NCBI RefSeq assembly: GCF_024124745.1
Contig: NZ_JAMXRU010000009.1
Span: forward strand, 1-64,000
DNA length: 64,000 bases
DNA from: Aeromicrobium sp. CnD17-E
GTDB taxonomy: Bacteria; Actinomycetota; Actinomycetes; Propionibacteriales; Nocardioidaceae
Reading direction: 5' to 3'
Translations under genes and position numbers: made by a program
Shown here: piece after piece, positions 29,385-47,061 of the stretch
Layout: every line of letters begins with the position of its first letter
How positions within the stretch are numbered: the first letter of the stretch is position 1
Notes under the pieces: generated by a model
Seen by the model: only the letters and a program-made list of their open reading frames with translations
The model's database searches: none
Told to the model about the DNA's origin: nothing

Positions 29385-30350
29385 ATGCGCCTCGCCGAGA
29401 TCGACCTGAGGGACGACGCTGCCTACACGGCCTTCCACGCGGTCTACGCGCGCGCCCACACGGAGCGTTTCGACGAGCCGTGGGGGTTCGCCGAGAAGCG
29501 CACCAACCTGACGAGCGACGCGTACGCCGAGCACGTCGTCGTGGCGGGTGAGGTCGACGGGGAGGTCGTCGGGGGAGCGTGGGTGTCGTTCCCGCAGCAG
29601 GACAACCGGACGCTCGCCTACCTGCACGTCTTCGTCGTGCCGCAGGAGCGTCGTCGTGGGTACGGGAGCCTGCTGCTGCGCGAGGTCGAGCGGCTCGCGG
29701 CAGAGCGCGGTCGGGCGAACGTGTTCGCGGAGGCGTCGTGGCCGGTGGAGCAGTCCGAGGGGCCGGGGTCGGCGTTCGCGCTGGCGCACGGGTACGCCGT
29801 CGACCTGCTCGACGCGATCCGCGCACTCCCGCTGCCCGCCGAGGTCGCACCGCCGGTGTGGCGCGACGGGTACACGGCGGTGGCCTGGCGTCGCTGCCCC
29901 GACGAGTGGCTCGACCAGTACGCCGTCCTGCGGGCGTTGATCCTCGCGGAGGCGCCGTCGGGGGAGGTGGGGCTGGAGCCCGAGCACTTCGACGCGGAAC
30001 GGGTGCGTCACGAGGAGGCCCGCTGGGCCGAGCAGGGCCGGGTCGGGCAGACGGTCGCCGCCGTCGCACCCGACGGCACCCTCGCCGGCCACACGCAGCT
30101 CGTGGTGCCCGACCACGGCGACACCGCCTACCAGTGGGACACGCTCGTCCTCCCCGCCCACCGCGGCCACGGCCTCGGCCTCGCGATGAAGACCGCCGCC
30201 CTCGGCGAGGCCACCGACCTCCTCTCCGGCCGCGCCCGCGTGACCACCTGGAACGCCGCCTCGAACACGCCGATGATCGCGGTCAACGAGGCCCTCGGCT
30301 ACCGGCAGGTGGCGTGGGCGGCGGAGCTGGTCAAGCCGTTGGGTCGCTGA
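29385..30350 (+). CDS. Tandem-GNAT acetyltransferase
   Basis: This 321-residue protein has two GNAT folds. The first (about 1-155) has the acetyl-CoA loop motif VVPQERRRGYGSLLL. The second (about 165-321) has VLPAHRGHGLGLAMK and NTPMIAVNEALGYRQ. Tandem GNATs of this kind include mycothiol synthase-like and antibiotic- or peptide-modifying enzymes; the substrate cannot be assigned. It lies 33 bases after glmM and just upstream of a large palindromic element. Confidence 0.82.
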   Translation: MRLAEIDLRDDAAYTAFHAVYARAHTERFDEPWGFAEKRTNLTSDAYAEHVVVAGEVDGEVVGGAWVSFPQQDNRTLAYLHVFVVPQERRRGYGSLLLREVERLAAERGRANVFAEASWPVEQSEGPGSAFALAHGYAVDLLDAIRALPLPAEVAPPVWRDGYTAVAWRRCPDEWLDQYAVLRALILAEAPSGEVGLEPEHFDAERVRHEEARWAEQGRVGQTVAAVAPDGTLAGHTQLVVPDHGDTAYQWDTLVLPAHRGHGLGLAMKTAALGEATDLLSGRARVTTWNAASNTPMIAVNEALGYRQVAWAAELVKPLGR

Positions 30351-30374
30351 GGGTTTCGACCTGCGGCTAGGCTG

Positions 30375-31022
30375 CTCGTCCTGCGGCTGCGTGGGTGCGG
30401 CTCGTCGTTCGGGTGGGGCTGCGCTGGCGCGGCTCCGTCTGGTCCTGCGCTCCGCAAGGGCCTCGACCGGGCGGGTGGCGACCGCGCTGGTCTGGGTGCT
30501 CGGGCTGTGGCCCGCGTTGGGCGCAAGATTCTGCGTTGCCGCCCGCTGAGCGGTAGTTCTGCCACCGCATCGCCGTCGGCGGTGGATCTGCCACCCTTCC
30601 CAGCGCTCGAAGGGTGGTGGATCAACCGCTGAGGGGGCGGGGTGGCAGTGCTTCTTCCTTCTCGTGGACCGTGCCACGAGAAGGGAGAAGCGCTGCCCAC
30701 CCCACCCCAAAGCGCGCCCACGATTCTTCATCTGCGCGTTCGAGGTCGAACGCTTCTGCGTTGGTGACGCGATCTCGGAGCAAACGCAGCATCCTGGGCT
30801 CTCCGACGCGCGAACGCAGCGTCTTGCGTCCAACGAAGGCCACAGCCCGAGAACCCCACCCAGCGCGGCACCCAGCCGCCCGGTCGAGGCCCTTGCGGAG
30901 GCCACCCCAGCGAACGCCGAGGCAGCGCACCGGCAACCCCAGACCCCCTGCGGCGACGCATGAGCACGGCAAGACTCCCGCAGGCAGCGCACCAGCAATC
31001 GAGGACCCCCTGCGGCAGCGCA
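30375..31022 (+). repeat. Large quasi-palindromic intergenic element, copy A
   Basis: This fills the 707-base gap between the convergent GNAT and coaA genes. A 21-mer beginning CTCCGCAAGGGCCTCGACC at 30450-30470 recurs as its perfect reverse complement at 30880-30900, and the similarity of the two arms extends about 70 bases inward. A central hairpin (CCTTCTCGTGG/CCACGAGAAGG, 30657-30684, with longer imperfect flanks 30641-30701) lies at the symmetry centre. Inner motifs CTGCGTT/AACGCAG (30756-30789) form a side hairpin. The left end carries CTCGTCCTGCGGCTGCGTG (30375-30393), and the right end CCCCCTGCGGCAGCGCA (31006-31022). Copy B has the same parts in reverse orientation. Open frames crossing it are not convincing genes. 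Confidence 0.85.
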
Positions 31023-31057
31023 GCCGCCGGACGACGCCCAGCAGAACCCCCGCGACG

Positions 31058-31999
31058 TCACATCTTGCGGAACCGCACCCACTTGACGGAGTGGTCGCTG
31101 CCCTTGCGGAGGACGAGGTCGGCGCGGCCGCGGGTGGACTGGATGTTCTCGCGCAGGTTCGGCCAGTTGATGGTGTCCCACAGCTCCTCGGCGCGGGCGA
31201 CGGCCTCGTCGTCGGTGAGGCTGCTGTAGCGGTGGAAGTAGGAGGCGGGGTCGGCGAAGGCGGTGCGGCGCAGGGCGAGGAAGCGGTCGACGTACCAGCG
31301 GCGGATGTCCTTGCTCGACGCGTCGACGTAGATCGAGAAGTCGAAGTAGTCGCTGACCGACAGGCCGGGGGAGCCGTCGCCGCGGTCCTTCGCGGGGGCG
31401 AGCACGTTGAGACCCTCGACGATGACGATGTCGGGCCGCTCCACGACCACCGTCTCATCGGTGCGGTCGTAGGTCAGGTGCGAGTAGACGGGGGCGGTCA
31501 CCTGCTCGACGCCCGACTTCACGTCGATGACGAACCGCAGCAGCGCCTTGCGGTCGTACGACTCCGGGAAGCCCTTGCGCTGCAGGATCCCGCGACGCTC
31601 CAGCTCGGCGTTCGGCCACAGGAAGCCGTCGGTGGTCACCAGCTTCACGTTCGGGTGCTCGGGCGACGTCGACAGCAGCTCGCGGAGCAGGCGGGCGGTG
31701 GTCGACTTGCCGACCGCGACCGACCCGGCGACGCCGATGACGAACGGCGTGCGCTGCGGCTGCGGCTCGCGCAGGAACGACTCGGTGGCCTCCCAGAGGC
31801 GGGTCGCTGCGCGCACGCGCAGGCTGATCAGCTCGGTCAGCGGCAGGTACACCTGCCGCACCTCGTCGATGTCGAGCTCCTCGCCGAGGCCCTTGAGACG
31901 TTGGACGTCGTCCTCGGTGAGGGGCTGGGGGACGTCGTCGGCGAGGTCGGCCCATGCCGACCGCTCGATCTCGACGTACGGCGAGAGCTCACGGGCCAT
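31058..31999 (-). CDS. coaA: Pantothenate kinase, type I
   Basis: CoaA (313 aa) phosphorylates pantothenate in the first step of CoA synthesis. The P-loop is [51 protein letters not shown] and the C-terminal [20 protein letters not shown] are type I signatures. The ATG at 31999 ([10 protein letters not shown]) is the usual N-terminus. It is divergent from glmS, with 55 bases between starts. Confidence 0.97.
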
Positions 32000-32054
32000 G
32001 ACGCCATCCTGCCGGTACCGGGGCCCACGGGCGCTCCTGGGTACCCTGGAGCGC

Positions 32055-33905
32055 ATGTGCGGAATCGTGGGATACGTCGGGCACCGCAACGCCCTCGACG
32101 TCGTCATGGGCGGGTTGCGACGGCTCGAGTACCGCGGGTACGACTCCGGTGGTGTCGCCCTGCCCGACCCCTCGACCGGGCGGATCGCCTGGGCGAAGAA
32201 GGCCGGCAAGCTGGCCAACCTCGACGGCGTCCTGGCCGAGACGACGATGCCCGAGACGACGACCGGCATCGGCCACACCCGGTGGGCGACGCACGGTGCG
32301 CCGAACGACCGGAACGCCCATCCGCACCTGAGCGAGGACGGTCGCCTGGCCGTCGTGCACAACGGCATCATCGAGAACTTCGCGGTGCTGCGGGCCGAGC
32401 TGGAGGCCGCCGGGCACGAGCTGCAGTCCGAGACCGACACCGAGGTGGTCGTGCACCTGCTCTCCGACGAGCTGCAGCGCACCCCCGCCCTCGACGACGC
32501 CGTCCGCGCCGTCTGCCAGCGGCTGGAGGGCGCGTTCACCCTCGTCTTCACCGACGCCCAGCAGCCCGAGGTCGTGGTCGGCGCGCGACGCAACTCCCCG
32601 CTGGTGGTGGGTCGCGGCGACGGTGAGAACTTCCTCGGCTCCGACGTGTCGGCCTTCATCGAGTTCACGCGCGAGGCCGTCGAGCTCGGCCAGGACCAGG
32701 TCGTCGCCATCACGCGCGACTCCATGACGGTCACCGACTTCGACGGCGCGCCCGCCGAGACGACCAGCTACCACGTCGACTGGGACGTGTCCGCCGCCGA
32801 GAAGGGCGGCTACGACTGGTTCATGCTCAAGGAGATCGACGAGCAGCCGCAGGCCGTCGCCGAGACGCTGCTCGGGCGCTACGGCCGGTCCGGTCGCCTG
32901 CAGCTCGACGAGATGCGCCTCAGTGACGACGAGCTGCGCGACGTCGACAAGATCATCATCATCGCCTGCGGCACCGCGTCGTACGCCGGGCTGGTCGCCA
33001 AGTACGCGATCGAGCACTGGACGCGCATCCCGTGCGAGGTCGAGCTGGCGTCGGAGTTCCGCTACCGCGACCCGATCATCGACCGGTCGACGCTCGTCGT
33101 GGCGATCAGCCAGTCGGGCGAGACGATGGACACGCTCATGGCGATCCGCTACGCCCGGCAGCAGCGGGCGCGGGTGCTCAGCATCTGCAACACCAACGGC
33201 TCCACGATCCCGCGCGAGTCCGACGCGGTCATCTACACGCACGCCGGCCCCGAGGTGGCGGTCGCGTCGACCAAGGGCTTCCTGTCGCAGATCGTCGCCT
33301 GCTACCTGCTCGGCCTGTACCTGGCACAGGTGCGCGGCGTGAAGTACGGCGACGAGATCGACGCCATCATGGCCGCGCTCGAGAAGCTGCCGGCCGGCAT
33401 CCAGCGGATGCTCGACGAGGGCGAGCAGGTCCGCAAGCTCGCGGCCGAGCTCGTCGACACGCGGTCCGTGCTGTTCCTCGGCCGCCACGTCGGCTACCCG
33501 GTGGCGCTCGAGGGTGCGCTGAAGCTCAAGGAGCTCGCGTACCTGCACGCCGAGGGGTTCGCGGCCGGCGAGCTGAAGCACGGCCCGATCGCGCTCATCG
33601 AGGACGGCATCCCGGTGTTCGTCGTCGTGCCGCCGAAGGCTCGCGACCAGCTGCAGGAGAAGATCGTCAGCAACATCCAGGAGATCCGGGCCCGGGGCGC
33701 GCTCACCATCGTCCTCGCGGAGGACGGCGACGACGACGTCGTGCCGTACGCCGACCACCTGATCCGGCTGCCGAAGGTGCCGACGCTGCTGCAGCCGCTC
33801 GTCGCCACGGTGCCGCTGCAGATCTTCGCGTGCGAGCTGGCCGGCCTGCTCGGCCACGACGTCGACCAGCCGCGGAACCTCGCCAAGTCCGTCACGGTCG
33901 AGTAG
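32055..33905 (+). CDS. glmS: Glutamine-fructose-6-phosphate aminotransferase (isomerizing)
   Basis: GlmS (616 aa) makes glucosamine-6-P from fructose-6-P and glutamine. Cys2 of [13 protein letters not shown] is the glutaminase nucleophile. Motifs [35 protein letters not shown] and HNGIIENF define the amidotransferase half. The two SIS domains follow, with [17 protein letters not shown] and [10 protein letters not shown], ending in NLAKSVTVE. It feeds GlmM, encoded 4 kb upstream. Confidence 0.97.
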
Positions 33906-34029
33906 GCCGTCGTGGCCGGCACCAGGGGCGGCGCGCACGTGCGCCCGGTGGCAGGGGATCGGGTCCACGGGGCGTCGGTGCACGACACGTCGGTGGCGAC
34001 GACGCCCGTCGTGGCGGAGGCTTGAGCCC

Positions 34030-35448
34030 GTGCTGAACGCCCACACCGTCGCCCAGGTCCGTGCCGCCGAGGAGCGTCTGGCCGCCGAGACCGGCTGGGA
34101 CGCGCTGATGCAGCGCGCCGCCCGCGGTCTCGCCGACGCCCTCGCCGCCGTGCCGGCCGACGAGACGGTCCTCGTCCTGGTCGGCCCCGGCAACAACGGT
34201 GGCGACGCGCTCTTCGCCGCCCCCCACCTGCTCGCGCGTGGCGTCGCCGTCGACCTCGCGCTGCTCGACCCCGATGCGGTCCACCCCGAGGGACTGGCGG
34301 CGGCCGAGGCGGCCGGGGCCCGACGCGTGTCGTCGCCGGGCGACCAGCGGTGGTGCCTCGACGCGCTGTTCGGCATCGGCGCGCGTCCTGGCCTCGAGGG
34401 CCGAGCGGGGGAGTGGGCGGACTGGACCCACGACACCGATGCCCACGTCGTCGCGGTCGACGTCCCGTCGGGCGTGGCCGTCGACACGGGCGCGACGCCG
34501 GGCCGCCACGTCCGCGCCGACCGCACCGTCACGTTCGGCACCCTCAAGGTCTGCTCGATCGTCGGGCCCGCCGCCGACGCCGGTGGCGGGGAGCCGCCGA
34601 CGCTCGTCGACATCGGTCTCGGCCCCCACCTCGACGCGCCGACGGTGACGTCGCTCGAGGCGACCGACGCCGACCTCCTCCGTCGGCACGTGCCCGGCGC
34701 CGCCTCGCACAAGTACGCGCGCGGCGTGGTCGGGGTCGACGCCGGCTCCGACGCCTACGCCGGTGCCGCCCACCTGTGCGTCGCGGGCGCGCAGTCGGGC
34801 CTGGCCGGGATGGTGCGATTCGTCGGCAGCGACACCCTCGCGGCGCGGGTGGTCGACCGCGCCCCGGAGGTCGTGCACGGTCGCGGACGGGTGCAGGCCT
34901 GGGTCGTCGGACCCGGCGCCGGTGACGATGTGGCCGACCAGCTGGCCGCCTGCCTCGACGACGACGTGCCGCTCGTCGTCGACGCCGGCGCGCTCGAGCA
35001 CCTGCCGCGTCCCGTCGGCGTGCCCGCGCTCCTGACGCCGCACGCCGGAGAGCTCGCCCGGCTGCTCGACGTCGAGCGCGAGACCGTGGAGGCCGACCCG
35101 CTGGAGCACGCGCGGCGGGCCGCCGCGCACTGGGACGCGACCGTGCTGCTCAAGGGCGCCCGCACGGTCGTCGTGGCTCCTGACGGACGCGTGGCCGTCA
35201 ACCTGTCCGGCACCCCGTGGCTCGGCACCGCAGGCTCGGGCGACGTCCTCGCCGGGTTCGCGGCGTCGCTCCTCGCCGGTGGGCTCGACCCGTTCGACGC
35301 GGGCCGGCACGCAGCGTTCCTGCACGGCGTCGCGGGCGTCCGCGCGAACCCGGGCGGACCGTTCGTGGCGTCCGACGTCGCCGCCGCCCTCCCGCAGACC
35401 CTGGCCGCGTTCCTCGCCGGCTCGCTGGATCAGGTGCGCGCGTGGTGA
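34030..35448 (+). CDS. nnrD: Bifunctional NAD(P)HX epimerase/dehydratase
   Basis: This 472-residue repair enzyme has an N-terminal NnrE-like epimerase domain (about 1-205, GPGNNGGDALFAAPHLLARG) and a C-terminal ADP-dependent NnrD-like dehydratase domain (GAGDDVADQLAACL, TPHAGELARLL and the catalytic/ADP motif GTAGSGDVLAG). Together they return damaged hydrated NADH/NADPH to the active form. The GTG start has GGAGG ten bases upstream. In many actinobacteria acpS lies between glmS and this gene; here only 124 bases separate them. The stop overlaps the alr start. Confidence 0.93.
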   Translation: MLNAHTVAQVRAAEERLAAETGWDALMQRAARGLADALAAVPADETVLVLVGPGNNGGDALFAAPHLLARGVAVDLALLDPDAVHPEGLAAAEAAGARRVSSPGDQRWCLDALFGIGARPGLEGRAGEWADWTHDTDAHVVAVDVPSGVAVDTGATPGRHVRADRTVTFGTLKVCSIVGPAADAGGGEPPTLVDIGLGPHLDAPTVTSLEATDADLLRRHVPGAASHKYARGVVGVDAGSDAYAGAAHLCVAGAQSGLAGMVRFVGSDTLAARVVDRAPEVVHGRGRVQAWVVGPGAGDDVADQLAACLDDDVPLVVDAGALEHLPRPVGVPALLTPHAGELARLLDVERETVEADPLEHARRAAAHWDATVLLKGARTVVVAPDGRVAVNLSGTPWLGTAGSGDVLAGFAASLLAGGLDPFDAGRHAAFLHGVAGVRANPGGPFVASDVAAALPQTLAAFLAGSLDQVRAW

Positions 35449-36557
35449 GCCCTCAGGCCGAGGCCGTCGTCGACCTCGAGGCGTACCGGCACAACGTGGC
35501 CACCCTCGCGGCGCACGCGCCCGGTGCCGCGCTGATGTCCGTCGTCAAGGCCGACGCGTACGGCCACGGACTGCGACCGGTGGCACGCGCCGCACGCGAC
35601 GCGGGAGCGTCGTGGCTCGGCGTCGTCACCGTCGAGGAGGCGCTCGCGCTGCGCCAGGCCGGCGACACCGGGCCGGTCCTGTGCTGGCTCGCGGCACCCG
35701 GTGCCGCCTACGGCGCCGCGGTCGAGCACGACGTCGAGCTGACGGCGTCGTCCGCCGAGCAGCTCGACGAGATCCTCCACGACGCACCGACGGGTCGACG
35801 ACCCCGCCTGCAGCTCAAGGTCGACACGGGCCTCTCGCGCAACGGTGCGCGCGGTCCGGCGTGGGACGAGCTCGTCGCCGCCGCCGGACGAGCGCAGGCC
35901 GCAGGGCGGGTCGAGGTCACCGGCGTGTGGTCGCACCTGGCGTGCGCCGACGAGCCGGACCATCCCGCCAACGACCAGCAGGAGACCGTGTTCCGGGCCG
36001 CGCTCGACGTCGCCGGCGCGGCCGGGCTCGACCCGCAGTGGCGTCACCTCGCCAACTCCGCCGCCCTCCTGACCCGCCCCAGCGCGCACTTCGACCTCGT
36101 CCGTCCGGGCATCGCCACGTACGGCATCGACCCCGACCCCGCGGTGGCGGGCATCGTCGACCTGCGTCCGGTCATGACGCTGCGCGGCCGGCTCGCGCAG
36201 GTCAAGCGGGTCCCCGCCGGCACCGCCGTGTCCTACGGCCACACGTGGACCACCGACCGCGAGACCACCCTCGGCCTCGTGCCGCTGGGGTACGGCGACG
36301 GTGTCCTGCGCTCCGCGTCCGGCCGCGCCGAGGCCGCCCACGACGGCGAGCGGGTGCCGGTCGTCGGCCGCATCTGCATGGACCAGCTGGTCGTCGACCT
36401 CGGAGACCGCCCGGCGCGACGCGGCGACGTCGTCACCCTGTTCGGCGCCGCCCCCGGTGCCCCCACCGCCCAGGACTGGGCGAGCGCCGCCGGTACGATC
36501 GCCTACGAGGTCGTCACCCGTCTCGGCGACCGCGTCGTGCGTACCCACCGAGGCTGA
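35445..36557 (+). CDS. alr: Alanine racemase
   Basis: Alr (370 aa) makes D-alanine for peptidoglycan, using PLP. The Lys that binds PLP is in VVKADAYGHGLRPVA at about residue 31. The other catalytic base (Tyr) is in GTAVSYGHTW. DTGLSRNG and VGRICMDQLVVDLG are also typical. I use the GTG at 35445, which overlaps the previous stop (GTGA); the GTG at 35442 is the only near alternative. Confidence 0.96.
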   Translation: MSPQAEAVVDLEAYRHNVATLAAHAPGAALMSVVKADAYGHGLRPVARAARDAGASWLGVVTVEEALALRQAGDTGPVLCWLAAPGAAYGAAVEHDVELTASSAEQLDEILHDAPTGRRPRLQLKVDTGLSRNGARGPAWDELVAAAGRAQAAGRVEVTGVWSHLACADEPDHPANDQQETVFRAALDVAGAAGLDPQWRHLANSAALLTRPSAHFDLVRPGIATYGIDPDPAVAGIVDLRPVMTLRGRLAQVKRVPAGTAVSYGHTWTTDRETTLGLVPLGYGDGVLRSASGRAEAAHDGERVPVVGRICMDQLVVDLGDRPARRGDVVTLFGAAPGAPTAQDWASAAGTIAYEVVTRLGDRVVRTHRG

Positions 36558-36588
36558 GGGCGTCCGAGCCCCGCCACCGAGGACAGTG

Positions 36589-37617
36589 ATGAGCCCCGCC
36601 CCCTCCCGCCTGGCAGCACTCGCCGCGACCGCCGGAGCCTTCGTGGCCGCCGGCGTGACCGCCAAGGTCGTCGACACCCGACGTCGTGAGCACCGGCGCG
36701 AGCAGCGCGGCGAGGAGGTCCCGTTCGGCAGCGTGCACAGCCCCGCCCGCACCGTCGTCGCCTCCGACGGCGTCCCGCTCAACGTCGAGGTCGACGAGGC
36801 CGACGAGGTGCACGCGGGCAGCGCGGCGCCCACCGTCGTCTTCGTGCACGGCTGGGTGTGCACGCTCGACACCTGGCACTACCAGCGTCTCGCGCTGCGC
36901 GGACTCGTGCGGATGGTGTTCTACGACCAGCGCTCCCACGGTGGCTCCGGTCGCTCGACGCGTCAGGGGTCGAGCTTCAGCCAGCTCGCCGACGACCTGC
37001 GGACCGTCCTCGACGAGGTCGTGCCCGAGGGGCCCGTCGTGCTCGTCGGCCACTCGATGGGCGGCATCACGGTGCAGCAGCTCGCGGCGGAGTCGCCGGA
37101 GCTGTTCGGCGACAGGGTCGTGGGTGCGGTGCTGCTGTCGACCAGCGACAACCGGCTCGTGCGGCAGAGCCCGGCCCTGCGCCGCATCCTGCCGTTCCTG
37201 CGCGCCGGCGCGCCCCTGCTCGACTGGGGCCGGACCTTCAACAGCTACAGCGTCATCCGACGGTGGGCGGTCGGGCCCGACGCGCCCCGCAAGTACGCCG
37301 ACATGTCCGACGAGATGATCCTGCGCGCCCAGACGCACGTGCTGCTCGACTTCTACCCCGCGTTCGTGGACCTCGACGTCCGCAGCGGCGCGGAAGGCCT
37401 GGGTCGGGTGCCCGTCGTCGTCGCGTGCGGCGACCACGACCTGCTCACGCCCATCAAGCACGCCCGCCGCCTCGCGCGCACCATCGAGGACGCGCGTCTC
37501 GTGACGCTCGGCGGCGCCGGGCACATGGTGCCCTTCGAGGAGAACGTGGCCGTCACCCGGATCATCGAGGACCTGCTCGACCGGATCGGGCACCCCGTGC
37601 GCGAGGGCGACCGGTGA
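36589..37617 (+). CDS. Alpha/beta-hydrolase with N-terminal membrane anchor
   Basis: This 342-residue protein has an N-terminal hydrophobic segment (LAALAATAGAFVAAGVTA) and then an alpha/beta-hydrolase domain. Landmarks are FVHGWVCTLDTWHYQ (oxyanion region), the nucleophile elbow VGHSMGGIT and the final His in GGAGHMVPFEE, with the acid residue probably in ACGDHDLLTP. The gene lies between alr and tsaE, a conserved place for this family in actinobacteria. GAGG lies six bases before the ATG. Substrate unknown. Confidence 0.85.
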   Translation: MSPAPSRLAALAATAGAFVAAGVTAKVVDTRRREHRREQRGEEVPFGSVHSPARTVVASDGVPLNVEVDEADEVHAGSAAPTVVFVHGWVCTLDTWHYQRLALRGLVRMVFYDQRSHGGSGRSTRQGSSFSQLADDLRTVLDEVVPEGPVVLVGHSMGGITVQQLAAESPELFGDRVVGAVLLSTSDNRLVRQSPALRRILPFLRAGAPLLDWGRTFNSYSVIRRWAVGPDAPRKYADMSDEMILRAQTHVLLDFYPAFVDLDVRSGAEGLGRVPVVVACGDHDLLTPIKHARRLARTIEDARLVTLGGAGHMVPFEENVAVTRIIEDLLDRIGHPVREGDR

Positions 37618-38585
37618 TGAGGGCGCTCGACGTCCTCGACGCCGGCCCTGAGCACGCCGAGGCGATCGTCGACATCATCCACCGCTCGTTCAGCGTCCGG
37701 CCCGACCTCGACCCGCCGTCGACCGCGCTCGACGAGACCGTCGAGTCGGTCTCGGAGGTGCTCGCGACGGCCGGCGGGCTGCTCGTGGAACGTCGCGGCG
37801 TGCCGATGGGCGCGCTGCTGTTCGACGAGTCGCGGCCGGGCAAGCTCGGCCTGCGTCGCGTGTCGGTCGATCCGGAGATCCAGGCCCGCGGGGTCGCGTC
37901 GGCCATGGTCGGCGTCGCGGAGGACACGGCCGAGGAGCGCGGCAAGGACGGCATCTGGCTGCACGTGCGCGAGGAGCTGCCCGACACGGTGCGGTTCTGG
38001 ACCCGCCGCAAGTACCACCCGGTGGGCCAGGAGGGGCCGCTGCTGGTGCTCGGCAAGACCTTGTGGCTCGCCCGCGAGGTGCCGACGCCCGACGCGATGC
38101 AGCACCTCGCCGGGCGCGTGGCCGAGCTGGTGCGTCCCGGTGACCTGCTGGTCCTCTCGGGCGACCTCGGCGCCGGCAAGACGACGTTCACCCAGGGCCT
38201 GGGCGACGCGCTGCAGGTGCGCGGACCCGTCACCTCGCCGACGTTCGTGCTCGCCCGCACGCACCCGTCGCTCGTCGACGGTCCCGCCCTCGTCCACGTC
38301 GACGCCTACCGCCTCGGCAGCGCCGCGGAGGTCGACGACCTCGACCTCGACACCGCCTCCGACGAGGCCGTCACCGTGGTCGAGTGGGGCGAGGGGATGG
38401 CCGAGCAGCTCAACGACAGCTGGCTCTCGGTGAGCATCGAGGTCCGCGGCGCCCGCCCCATCGACCCCCTCGGCACCGAGCACGACGGCGACCACCCCGA
38501 CGAGGCCGAGCCGCGCGTCGTCACCATCAAGCCGAACGGTCCCCGTTGGGTCGACGTGCCGTTGCGCTCCACGCTCCTCGGCTGA
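37617..38585 (+). CDS. tsaE: Fusion of GNAT acetyltransferase and TsaE ATPase
   Basis: A single 322-residue frame joins two proteins. Residues 1 to about 150 are a GNAT domain (LGLRRVSVDPEIQARGVASA, VRFWTRRKYHPVGQ). Residues about 158-322 are TsaE, the ATPase that drives the TsaBD complex in forming the t6A37 modification of tRNA. The Walker A is SGDLGAGKTTFTQGLG, followed by VTSPTFVLARTH and VDAYRLGS. The ATG overlaps the hydrolase stop (TGATG). No internal stop or frameshift separates the halves. tsaB, normally next, is 781 bases away beyond a palindromic element. Confidence 0.9.
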   Translation: MRALDVLDAGPEHAEAIVDIIHRSFSVRPDLDPPSTALDETVESVSEVLATAGGLLVERRGVPMGALLFDESRPGKLGLRRVSVDPEIQARGVASAMVGVAEDTAEERGKDGIWLHVREELPDTVRFWTRRKYHPVGQEGPLLVLGKTLWLAREVPTPDAMQHLAGRVAELVRPGDLLVLSGDLGAGKTTFTQGLGDALQVRGPVTSPTFVLARTHPSLVDGPALVHVDAYRLGSAAEVDDLDLDTASDEAVTVVEWGEGMAEQLNDSWLSVSIEVRGARPIDPLGTEHDGDHPDEAEPRVVTIKPNGPRWVDVPLRSTLLG

Positions 38586-38633
38586 GGGGCTGGCCGCGTC
38601 GCTGCGGTGGGGGGTTGGGGCGTGACCTTGGGG

Positions 38634-39257
38634 TGCGCTGCCGCAGGGGGGCGGGGTGTGCTGCTGCGCTGCCTGCGGTCGTCGTGACCTTGCTGGTGCG
38701 CTGCCTCGGCTTTCGCTGTGTCTGGTCTCCGCAAGGGCCTCGACCGGCGGCGAGCCTGGAGGCGGCTTGGAGTCTCGGGGTCTGGTCTGGGCCCGCCCTT
38801 GGATCCACGATTCTTCGTTTCTGCGTTCAGGGGCCAAGGTTCTGCGTTTGCGCGTCCGGGCGGTGGGTCTGCCACCGCAGGAGCGCTTCTACGGTTGCGG
38901 ATCCACCGATAGAGGGCTGAGCGGGGGGAAGGATTCTTCTTTCGCGTGGAACGGTCCACACCAAGGAAGAATCATTCGTCACCCCCACGCAAAGTGCACC
39001 CACGATTCTTCATTCACGCGTGCGAGGCCGAAGGCTTCTGCGTTCACGACGGGATCCCGTAGCAAACGCAGAAGGCTTGGCCCTCCGACGCACAAACGCA
39101 GATCCTCGCGTCCCACGCGAGTCGCAGCCCGAGACCCCAGACCAGCGCGCCGCCCAGCCGCCCGGTCGAGGCCCTTTCGGAGACCACCCCCAGCGAAGGG
39201 CGAGGCAGCGCAGCGCCGCGTCGACGAGAACGTGCGCGCACGCAGCCGCAGGACGAG
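38634..39257 (-). repeat. Large quasi-palindromic intergenic element, copy B (inverted relative to A)
   Basis: This fills the 781-base gap between tsaE and tsaB. The 21-mer of copy A occurs here at 38727-38747 and, with one mismatch, in reverse complement at 39162-39182, so the inverted pair spans 456 bases versus 451 in copy A. The central hairpin (38932-38973, 16 of 19 bp, loop ACGG) sits at the symmetry centre. A side hairpin (CTTCTGCGTT/AACGCAGAAG, 39035-39074, enclosing ACGGGATCCCGT) matches the one in A. The end features are swapped: the CCCCCTGCGGCAGCGCA end is on the left (38634-38650, reverse complement), and the CACGCAGCCGCAGGACGAG end on the right. Two and a half 31-bp repeats follow to about 39310. 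Confidence 0.85.
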
Positions 39258-39366
39258 TCGACCAAGGCCCACGCAGCCGCAGGACGAGTCGAACGAGACC
39301 CACGCAGCGGCGAGTCCTCGCACCGACCCCCGTGACGCGTCGTGAGGTGAGGGTAGGCTCACTCGT

Positions 39367-40008
39367 GTGCTGCTGCTCGCGATCGACACGTCCGGACCCG
39401 CGGTGAGCGTCGCCGTGCACGACGGTGACCAGGTCGTCGGGACGGCGCAGGGCGAGGGGACGATGGCGCACGGCGAGCTGCTTGCGCCGGCGGTGCGCGA
39501 CGCCCTCGCCGACGCCGGGCGCAGCGCCGCCGACCTCACCGACGTCGCCGTCGGAGTGGGTCCCGGACCCTTCACCGGGCTGCGGGTCGGGATCGTCACC
39601 GCCCGCACCCTCGCCGCGACCCTGGGCCTCACGAGCCACGGCGTCTGCTCGCTCGACGCCCTCGCCCTCGACGCCGGCCTCGGCCGCGAGCACCTCGTCG
39701 CCATCGACGCACGGCGCAAGGAGGTCTACTGGGCGCGCTACGTGCCCGACGCCGACGGCGTCGCGCGCCGGGTCGACGGACCGCACGTCGACAAGCCTGC
39801 CGAGCTCGCGCGGCTCCACCCCGACCTGCCCGTCGTCGGACGCGGCGCCACCCTCTACGCCGACGTGCTCGACGCCGCCGACGGGCCGCTCGACCCGTCC
39901 GCCGCCGCGCTCGCCGAGGGCGTGGTGCGGGGCCACGTCGAGGTGCTGGGGCTCGAGCCGCTCTACCTGCGCCGTCCCGACGCGCAGCCCGCCGCCCCGG
40001 TGCGGTGA
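39367..40008 (+). CDS. tsaB: t6A biosynthesis protein TsaB
   Basis: TsaB (213 aa) is the scaffold partner of TsaD in tRNA t6A37 synthesis, with an ASKHA fold lacking the catalytic site. MLLLAIDTSGPAVSVAV, MAHGELLAPAVRDAL and VGVGPGPFTGLRVGIVTART are family motifs. The GTG at 39367 lies just after the palindromic element. The stop overlaps rimI by four bases. Confidence 0.94.
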   Translation: MLLLAIDTSGPAVSVAVHDGDQVVGTAQGEGTMAHGELLAPAVRDALADAGRSAADLTDVAVGVGPGPFTGLRVGIVTARTLAATLGLTSHGVCSLDALALDAGLGREHLVAIDARRKEVYWARYVPDADGVARRVDGPHVDKPAELARLHPDLPVVGRGATLYADVLDAADGPLDPSAAALAEGVVRGHVEVLGLEPLYLRRPDAQPAAPVR

Positions 40009-46511: not shown

Positions 46512-46545
46512 ACCCGCGGCCTTCCGCTGTTCGAGCAGCCGAAGG
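46501..46545 (+). terminator. Hairpin at the end of the GAF regulator gene
   Basis: CCTTCGGCTG (46501-46510), which includes the last codons of the gene, pairs perfectly with CAGCCGAAGG (46536-46545) across a 25-base GC-rich loop. Without a U-run this is only a possible terminator; it separates the regulator from the following repeat block. Confidence 0.35.
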
Positions 46546-46558
46546 TGCGGGACGTTTC

Positions 46559-47061
46559 GCTGTTCGAGTGCCTTCACGAGCGCCAGCGAGGGGAGGTGTA
46601 TCGAGACCACTCTGGGCGGTCGCTGGGGGTCGGCTCGCGCTGGGCTGTTGCCGGGTGGTCTCGATACGCGGCACGACGCTCCTTCGTCGCGCGTGCCGCT
46701 ACTCGACCAGCGGGACGTTTTGCTGGTCGAGTGCCTCCACGAGCGCGAGCGAGGGGAGGTGTATCGAGACCACTCTGGGTGGTCGCTGGGGGTCGGGCCG
46801 CGCTGAGCCGTTGCCGAGTGGTCTCGATACGTCCGAGCCTCGCAAGCTCGCTCGGACTACTCGACCAGCGATGGGTTTCGCTGGTCGAGTGCCTCCACGA
46901 GCGCCAGCGAGGGGAGGTGCTGGAGCCGTCGCAGGGGGGCGTAGCCGCGACGGAGCGAGACCACTCTGGGCGGTCGCTGGGGGTCGGGCCGCGCTGGGCT
47001 GTTGCCGGGTGGTCTCGATGCGCAGGGACCTCGCACGCTCGCTCGGACTGCGCGACCAGCG
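46559..47061. repeat. Three tandem nested-palindrome repeats
   Basis: Three related units lie at 46559-46712, 46721-46870 and 46879-47061. Each begins with CGCTGGTCGAGTG or a one- to two-base variant and ends with its complement ACTCGACCAGCG or a variant. Each also has an inner inverted pair TATCGAGACCAC/GTGGTCTCGATA around a conserved GGTCGCTGGGGGTCG core. Unit 3 has an insert of about 35 bases before its inner arm and degenerate right arms. Repeats built on GGTCTCGATA and CTCGACCA arms are common in intergenic regions of actinobacteria. They fill most of the 655-base gap before the aldehyde dehydrogenase; no gene is seen in it. Confidence 0.85.

Follow-up and report, generated by a model that had tools for sequence, protein, structure and literature searches.

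A dispersed family of intergenic palindromes in Aeromicrobium holds largely fixed sites and probably exchanges core sequence between them

Two copies of a long, non-coding palindromic element, here called copies A and B, lie between genes in the 64,000-nucleotide stretch of Aeromicrobium sp. CnD17-E that we analyzed (the window; contig NZ_JAMXRU010000009.1, positions 1 to 64,000). We find that both belong to a real repeat family, a dispersed intergenic composite palindrome, whose copies largely keep their positions and appear to exchange their content. Several statistics support this behavior, and the biological role of the family is putative. The explanation that we consider probable is that the sites are largely fixed, whereas short tracts of the cores are replaced by sequence from copies at other loci of the genome, and that the family thereby undergoes concerted evolution. 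Each element follows one plan, with a quasi-palindromic core, near-invariant 21-bp inverted arms, and outer tandem units of about 31 bp that come in two kinds, P (CACGCAGCCGCAGGACGAG-like) and Q (GGCAGCGCACCAGCA...CCCCCTGCGG).

A preliminary description of the window had reported the element as present twice, which proved to be a large undercount. In the genome that holds the window (the own genome, G000; 219 contigs, 3.57 Mb in total), a search for the arm pattern allowing up to two mismatches gave 87 matches against 1 for a reversed control, and the pattern combined with a DNA similarity search gave 58 candidate loci. With one candidate (C44) left out, the 57 loci (55 in fetched stretches and 2 in the window) contain 50 paired cores; the stretches L147, L151, L152, L157, L159, L176, L177 and L183 have no arm pair. 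According to a home-made codon-usage gene caller, 48 of the 50 paired cores are intergenic, and the two that overlap predicted genes, L160:0 and L162:1, are probably chance arm pairs. Core lengths are mostly about 295-463 bp (244-463 bp in full range without these two doubtful pairs) and cluster near 328, 360, 388, 425 and 458 bp, with hairpin modules of about 50-88 bp. The preliminary description is supported in that the element is a real non-coding repeat whose arms and ends are conserved, and it occurs in relatives as well.

The positions of the copies were compared with the sister genome G005, where a site was scored as shared when both 1.8-kb flanks of an own core matched within one arm-bearing G005 stretch. 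For 42 of the 50 paired cores both flanks fell in a single stretch among the first 40 examined, and 13 further arm-bearing stretches added 6 more cores, giving 48 of 50 in 40 + 13 stretches out of about 57 arm loci in G005; the probable chance pair L160:0 is counted among the 48. Flank identities were mostly 93-98% (full range 85.5-99.6%). The idea that the element is currently mobile is not supported by this result, since nearly every paired copy sits at a matching arm-bearing place in the sister genome. Two cores had no full match (L163 none, L190:1 on one side only), and six of the eight stretches without an arm pair also align to an arm-bearing G005 stretch, with L147 and L159 aligning only within the repeat. 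Conservation extends to the metagenome-assembled genome (MAG) JAPLCA01 (Propionibacteriales bacterium LacPavin_0920_WC90_MAG_72_22), where 27 of the 50 own cores have both flanks and 26 of these sites, among them those of copies A and B, have a paired core between the flanks; a further 18 cores match on one side and 5 do not match. In G019, whose stretches were selected for holding arms, 8 of 50 own cores have both flanks and 5 have a paired core between; the copy A site is among these, and the copy B site holds 296 bp with hairpin remnants. The set of sites is thus stable among the closer relatives, but mostly differs in the more distant G019.

The statistics on content, tracts and arrays use 37 of the first 42 G000/G005 site pairs. 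Left out were L162:1 (doubtful), L192:1 (partner arm pair missing), and L168, L186 and copy B, each with a G005 partner interrupted by an insertion sequence (IS); the 6 later site pairs are absent from the content statistics. The type of the outer array, P or Q, was equal at 67 of 70 classifiable flanks of these site pairs, and the number of array units at only 19 of 74 flanks. Core content did not follow the site in this way. Aligned core identity without the arms was 0.829 for the same site and 0.811 for different sites, the same-site partner was the best of all in 5 of 37 pairs, and the longest exact tract was with the same-site partner in 3 of 37. Cores at different sites share exact tracts of up to 82 bp between the genomes and up to 155 bp within the own genome, where a simulation at 85% identity puts the expected longest run at about 28 bp. 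The comparison with JAPLCA01 gave 0.679 for the same site and 0.672 for different sites (not significant, P 0.09), and the same-site partner was best in 2 of 26. In the 37 JAPLCA01 cores, linkage between variable positions had an r2 of 0.32 at distances of 1-5 bp and of only 0.04 at 40-80 bp; decay was slower in the own genome (27 cores) and G005 (26 cores), with r2 of 0.13 and 0.16 at 40-80 bp, and 0.10 and 0.06, respectively, at the longest distances. The JAPLCA01 cores are homogenized, with the nearest neighbor inside the MAG for 36 of 37 and an identity of 0.853 within the MAG against 0.762-0.772 to others. Together, the near-equal identity of same and different sites, the tracts and the decay of linkage fit short-tract ectopic gene conversion. 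As array type stays with the site and core content does not, this suggests inheritance of the site together with its end types, and exchange of the core.

We hypothesize that the family spread earlier by some mechanism and is now mostly immobile, with sites that would have been largely fixed since before the split of the three sister species. The cores would then have been overwritten repeatedly, in short tracts, from other loci of the genome, causing the copies to evolve in concert. The exchange could be ectopic gene conversion of the RecA type, primed by the 21-bp arms and the shared hairpin stems, which would be able to pair in either orientation and as single-stranded DNA hairpins. We speculate, with less assurance, that the long hairpins are kept because they act either at the DNA level or in transcripts from both strands; at gene borders they might serve as two-way transcription barriers or as supercoiling sinks.

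Several observations weigh against this explanation. Over a longer core, identity was 0.730 for the same site and 0.669 for different sites, and 0 of 5000 permutations were as high; same-site resemblance therefore persists between G000 and G005, which points to incomplete exchange. Nor do own and G005 cores show homogenization by species (0.769 within the own genome, 0.776 to G005), and the nearest neighbors of own cores were own in 11 cases, G005 in 15 and JAPLCA01 in 1. An empty G005 site would appear as a missing match, and L163, L190:1 on one side, L147 and L159 are unmatched; since only arm-bearing G005 stretches were compared, an empty site could hide solely among such loci. JAPLCA01 is a MAG, in which misassembly at repeats could swap cores; G005 is one contig. 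Very fast point mutation with strong structural selection could hide same-site descent, but would not create tracts of 60-155 bp. Finally, two of five covariation measures in the alignment considered below were no better than shuffles (209 of 500 for double-change pairs and 272 of 500 for further pair types).

The family is narrowly distributed. A search of 39 relatives, in which the best 14 candidates per genome were scored, gave matches at 1e-5 in 4 genomes: the own genome (G000), G005, G019 and G011, the last with 6 short fragments. A search of 341 genomes of the bacterial family, with the best 2 candidates scored, gave matches at 1e-8 in 6, all within one of 26 genera: G000, G005, G019 and G056, with one match each in G011 and G040. 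Both searches are less sensitive than searches with 40 candidates scored. The exact arm was found in 63 stretches of a named genome collection, 62 of them in JAPLCA01 and one in JAUXQH01; the latter (JAUXQH010000070) is a lone arm with no partner in 900 bases, which we take as chance. G011 carries a lone perfect 50-bp palindrome, GGTGGATCCGCCACCGTACGAGCGCTCGTACGGTGGCGGATCCACC, just after a gene (L063:1517-1566), with the plan of the side hairpin, so modules exist independently of the whole element. Carriage by phages or plasmids was considered and set aside, as viral contigs held no exact arm match and plasmids no match to copy A (a further phage collection lay outside the search). Searches of the open PMC literature brought up no description of the family and no paper with the arm motif (ISfinder and subscription papers lay outside the search), and within the scope of these searches the family is undescribed.

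The leading alternative, which we regard as possible but unlikely, is that the element is a structured RNA or a strong two-way terminator, with selection acting on the transcript. In its favor are the folding and the compensatory changes. The preliminary description was right that this is no random GC-rich spacer: in RNA folding, the cores of copies A and B score far better than shuffled sequences (z -17.9 and -10.0; 0 of 100 shuffles as good for each). In an alignment (A1) of 43 of the 46 listed cores of 448-465 bp, from which L227, L108 and L115 were dropped by hand with no biological reason, 96.8% of cells pair. There were 81 double-change cells, whereas shuffles gave 32.8, with none of 500 reaching the observed count, and slid controls gave no more than 20. 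Nine of the 11 double-change pairs lie in the side and central hairpins and none in the near-invariant outer stem. The core thus holds several hairpins, two of them clearly compensated. One-strand RNA selection was considered from the excess of G-U over A-C cells, which was 135 to 50 on the plus strand and 450 to 22 on the complementary strand; appearing on both strands, the excess is produced by folding itself. For the 50 pairs predicted on both strands the counts were 16 G-U and 21 A-C, which gives no sign of selection on one transcript strand. The hairpins covary but favor neither strand, which weakens the proposal of a structured RNA. Templated repair within the hairpin, a hairpin at the DNA level, or transcripts from both strands would explain the pattern equally well.

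Gene context bears on the same alternative. Copy A is sited between a GNAT gene (end 30350) and coaA, a convergent pair, and copy B between tsaE (end 38585) and tsaB (39367), which run in the same direction; these names are presumptive readings of the translations. With gene orientation taken from the codon-usage caller, 48 own copies comprise 26 between same-direction, 15 between convergent and 7 between divergent genes, compared with 347, 71 and 81 of 499 background gene pairs in the own and G005 stretches. The convergent excess (Fisher P 0.0056) is consistent with a terminator. However, divergent positions, where no transcript ends, are occupied at about the background rate and are not depleted (P 1.0). 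In addition, no Rfam family was matched at the gathering score in 30000-39700, and with E up to 1 copy A gave 11 generic miRNA-precursor hairpin matches far below that score. An IS also lies inside the element in 3 of the first 40 G005 stretches. A coding element was rejected, in agreement with the earlier view that no convincing protein is encoded, as none of the 5 open reading frames overlapping the copies matches Pfam at E 0.01. Neither a known coding family nor an Rfam entry was thus found at these thresholds.

A wider reading, which we hold to be doubtful, arises from unrelated motifs at the same borders in G021, G024 and other congeners. It proposes genus-wide, species-level "dialects" of an intergenic palindrome, located at some of the same gene borders, which an unnamed machinery would seed, copy and homogenize within a genome, the element of G000, G005 and JAPLCA01 being the most elaborate. 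If true, such a repeat system, driven by recombination yet fixed in position, would be of a new kind. The tsaE-tsaB gap is 9-64 bp in 16 of 24 measured genus genomes and 102-781 bp in G000, G019 and six others (G005 was not measurable at this border in the gap survey), and the GNAT-coaA gap was measurable in 14 of 25. Short inverted repeats of unrelated motif occur in several of the longer gaps and, where coaA has another neighbor, on its side of the border. These are mostly species-specific and were seen at the tsaE-tsaB border in G003, G007, G009, G011, G021 and G024 and at the coaA side in G002, G003, G004, G008, G009 and G015, with a GAGTGGYGCA-type motif common to G008, G015 and G003. A pattern for the G021 and G024 motifs gave 10 and 12 matches there, 1 in G012 and 0 in 8 other genomes searched. 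Separately, genes beside some congener hairpins raised the idea of DUF559 nucleases as partners, which was rejected on the distribution of DUF559 matches (2 in G000, 1 each in G005 and G019, 0-5 in the other genomes of the genus).

It is rather improbable, in our estimate, that the ~31-bp units or hairpin motifs are a putative binding site for a nucleoid or chromosome-organizing protein. The Q unit, with up to one mismatch, occurs 150 times in the own genome against 8 for the control, and the matches listed are all at element loci except two at C60. The 55 G005 positions show no departure from a uniform spread (Kolmogorov-Smirnov P 0.25), which is compatible with such a role. Confinement to one small clade (6 of 341 genomes) is unlike a general chromosome function, however, and core orientations are mixed. 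A replication-oriented signal was considered and dropped, as the 39 G005 cores divide into 8 plus and 8 minus in the first half of the chromosome and 9 and 14 in the second. As a side observation, no arm match is listed in the interval 6.4-534 kb of the G005 chromosome (the dnaA end), where about 8 are expected (P 0.00018, for an interval picked post hoc).

We give still less weight to an active transposon resembling a miniature inverted-repeat transposable element (MITE), with 21-bp terminal inverted repeats, a transposase acting in trans and copies still moving. Inverted arms, high copy number, intergenic location and several size classes would suit it, and the few sites shared with G019 imply spread or loss at a deeper time. 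Yet sites are common to the own genome, G005 and JAPLCA01, empty G005 sites are possible only at the few unmatched loci named above, and the arrays beyond the arms keep their type at each site, which does not suggest the arms as the outer ends of a moving unit. The absence of the exact arm from the viral collection and of copy A from plasmids also speaks against it. No MITE-type parent transposon turned up, no search having been aimed at shared ends, and the more distant congeners with short gaps are too diverged to show a target duplication. The only IS seen inside copies is one of about 1.1 kb, with an HTH_38 and rve transposase, that lies inside the core hairpin stems of 3 G005 copies and that we take to be of the IS30 type. 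The IS copies are 99% identical (L218:1503-2598, L219:1449-2544 and L220:1533-2637), and one lies at the site orthologous to copy B, where the element is present in G005 and interrupted; the G005 arm pairs of L218 and L220 are artifacts of the insertion. Last, plain vertical descent of a neutral spacer that accumulates point mutations very fast, the shuffling being noise, would account for the small significant same-site signal in G000/G005, but is already strongly contradicted, and very improbable, given the 60-155 bp exact tracts between sites, the linkage decay and the compensated stems.

The features of copies A and B are collected in the table below. Most of the architecture given in the preliminary description was recovered: the inverted 21-mer pair is present in both copies (in copy B at 38727-38747/39162-39182), as are the central hairpin, the side hairpins and the CTGCGTT/AACGCAG hairpin. 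The claim of two distinct ends was partly upheld, in that the ends are conserved but consist of tandem arrays of ~31-bp units and are not unique. The same applies to polarity: the core is polar and the ends of copy B are swapped relative to copy A, but the copy B core points the same way as that of copy A, so copy B is not simply an inverted form of copy A. The 87 copies classified in two genomes comprised 38 of the order P-core-Q, 36 of Q-core-Q, 6 of P-core-P, 6 of unclear order and 1 of Q-core-P, the last being copy B (38602-39320), whose core may have flipped between its arms.

Table. Positions of the parts of copies A and B in the window
Feature	Position	Strand	Remarks
Copy A left flank, P-type ~31-bp tandem units	30352..30449	+	from GNAT gene end (30350) to left arm
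Copy A left arm, 21 bp, CTCCGCAAGGGCCTCGACCGG	30450..30470	+	
Copy A core, quasi-palindrome of 451 bp	30450..30900	+	
Copy A side hairpin (GGCGGTGGATCTGCCACC ... GGTGGTGGATCAACCGC)	30573..30635	+	helix 5; 50-bp version stands alone in G011
Copy A central hairpin, arms 41 nt, complementarity 80%	30627..30714	+	helix 6
Copy A third hairpin, CTGCGTT/AACGCAG	30756..30790	+	helix 8
Copy A right arm, 21 bp, CCGGTCGAGGCCCTTGCGGAG	30880..30900	+	
Copy A right flank, Q-type tandem units (GGCAGCGCACCAGCA...CCCCCTGCGG)	30901..31034	+	
Copy B left flank, Q-type tandem units, reverse complement	38602..38726	+	
Copy B core, 456 bp	38727..39182	+	orientation as in copy A core
Copy B side hairpin	38859..38909	+	
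Copy B central hairpin	38930..38975	+	
Copy B third hairpin, CTGCGTT/AACGCAG	39035..39072	+	
Copy B right flank, P-type tandem units (CACGCAGCCGCAGGACGAG)	39183..39320	+	stops before tsaB (39367)

Two further observations concern the window. A TAGGCT motif stands a few bases before tsaB (39340-39367 and orthologues) in 14 of 22 gap sequences, regardless of the size of the tsaE-tsaB gap; as a putative promoter, it may explain the tolerance of a 781-bp insert before tsaB. A separate repeat array occupies 46540-47000 and on, between two same-direction genes, with units about 160 bp apart that contain GTATCGAGACCAC ... GTGGTCTCGATAC inverted pairs and TACTCGACCAGCG ends (matches at 46598, 46655, 46761 and 46818). 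Its motif was absent from the own element stretches compared.

The usual view of dispersed bacterial repeats is that they are either mobile DNA or static relics, and the present family fits neither description. With largely fixed sites and content exchanged over tens of base pairs, scattered copies would behave like a recombining population. If confirmed, this would allow ectopic recombination over short tracts to be assayed in a natural setting in actinobacteria, which are not known to carry MutS/MutL. Short-read assemblies may break or swap at such copies, as the 219 contigs of the own genome could reflect, and the family allows a clean test of the effect of long intergenic hairpins on expression.

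Among known systems, MITEs and Correia-type elements have inverted ends, are non-coding and are dispersed between genes. The present family likewise has inverted arms, is non-coding and is dispersed between genes, but its arrays lie outside the arms and most of its sites are fixed in three species. DNA uptake sequence (DUS) dialects are species-specific short motifs, often arranged as inverted pairs. G021 and G024 resemble them in carrying a motif of their own at the same gene boundary. Their 10 and 12 matches per genome, however, are far below the 1,831-1,910 DUS per genome given in the excerpts consulted of PMC3898611.

Neisserial intergenic mosaic elements (NIMEs), compared here by description only, combine the 20-bp dRS3 repeat, which has 6-bp terminal inverted repeats, with variable RS units of 30-160 bp in intergenic arrays, and recombination between copies is discussed (PMC3898611, in part). 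Our family likewise combines short repeats with inverted ends and variable units between genes. Unlike NIMEs, it has 21-bp arms that form an inverted pair on either side of a palindromic core; each site holds one element, and the core folds as a whole. On reading copies A and B, the dRS3 pattern ATTCCC(N8)GGGAAT, as given in the same excerpts, bounds neither core, the arms being CTCCGMAAGGGCCTCGACCGG.

We file the family with interspersed mosaic palindromes, similar to the bacterial interspersed mosaic elements (BIMEs) and NIMEs. A repetitive extragenic palindrome (REP) system with its RAYT transposase was rejected, as no Y1_Tnp domain (PF01797) was found in 39 genomes including the own, with a control search positive in 5 of 14. 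REP, BIME and REPIN elements are described, in the excerpts consulted, as intergenic, palindromic, high-copy and mosaic (PMC2817692, PMC3116915, PMC3733652), with IS elements known that target REP palindromes (PMC1525189), and gene conversion has been proposed for REPs (Higgins 1988, cited in PMC2267715). A GTAG or CGTC tag at one end is a further feature of REPs (PMC3733652). The present elements are alike in being intergenic, palindromic, high-copy, mosaic in motifs and targets of IS. They differ from REPs, of 20-40 bp according to the portion consulted of PMC3733652, in a core of mostly ~295-463 bp, constant 21-bp arms and outer arrays of ~31-bp units. A further difference is that fixed sites with exchanged content have been measured in the present family.

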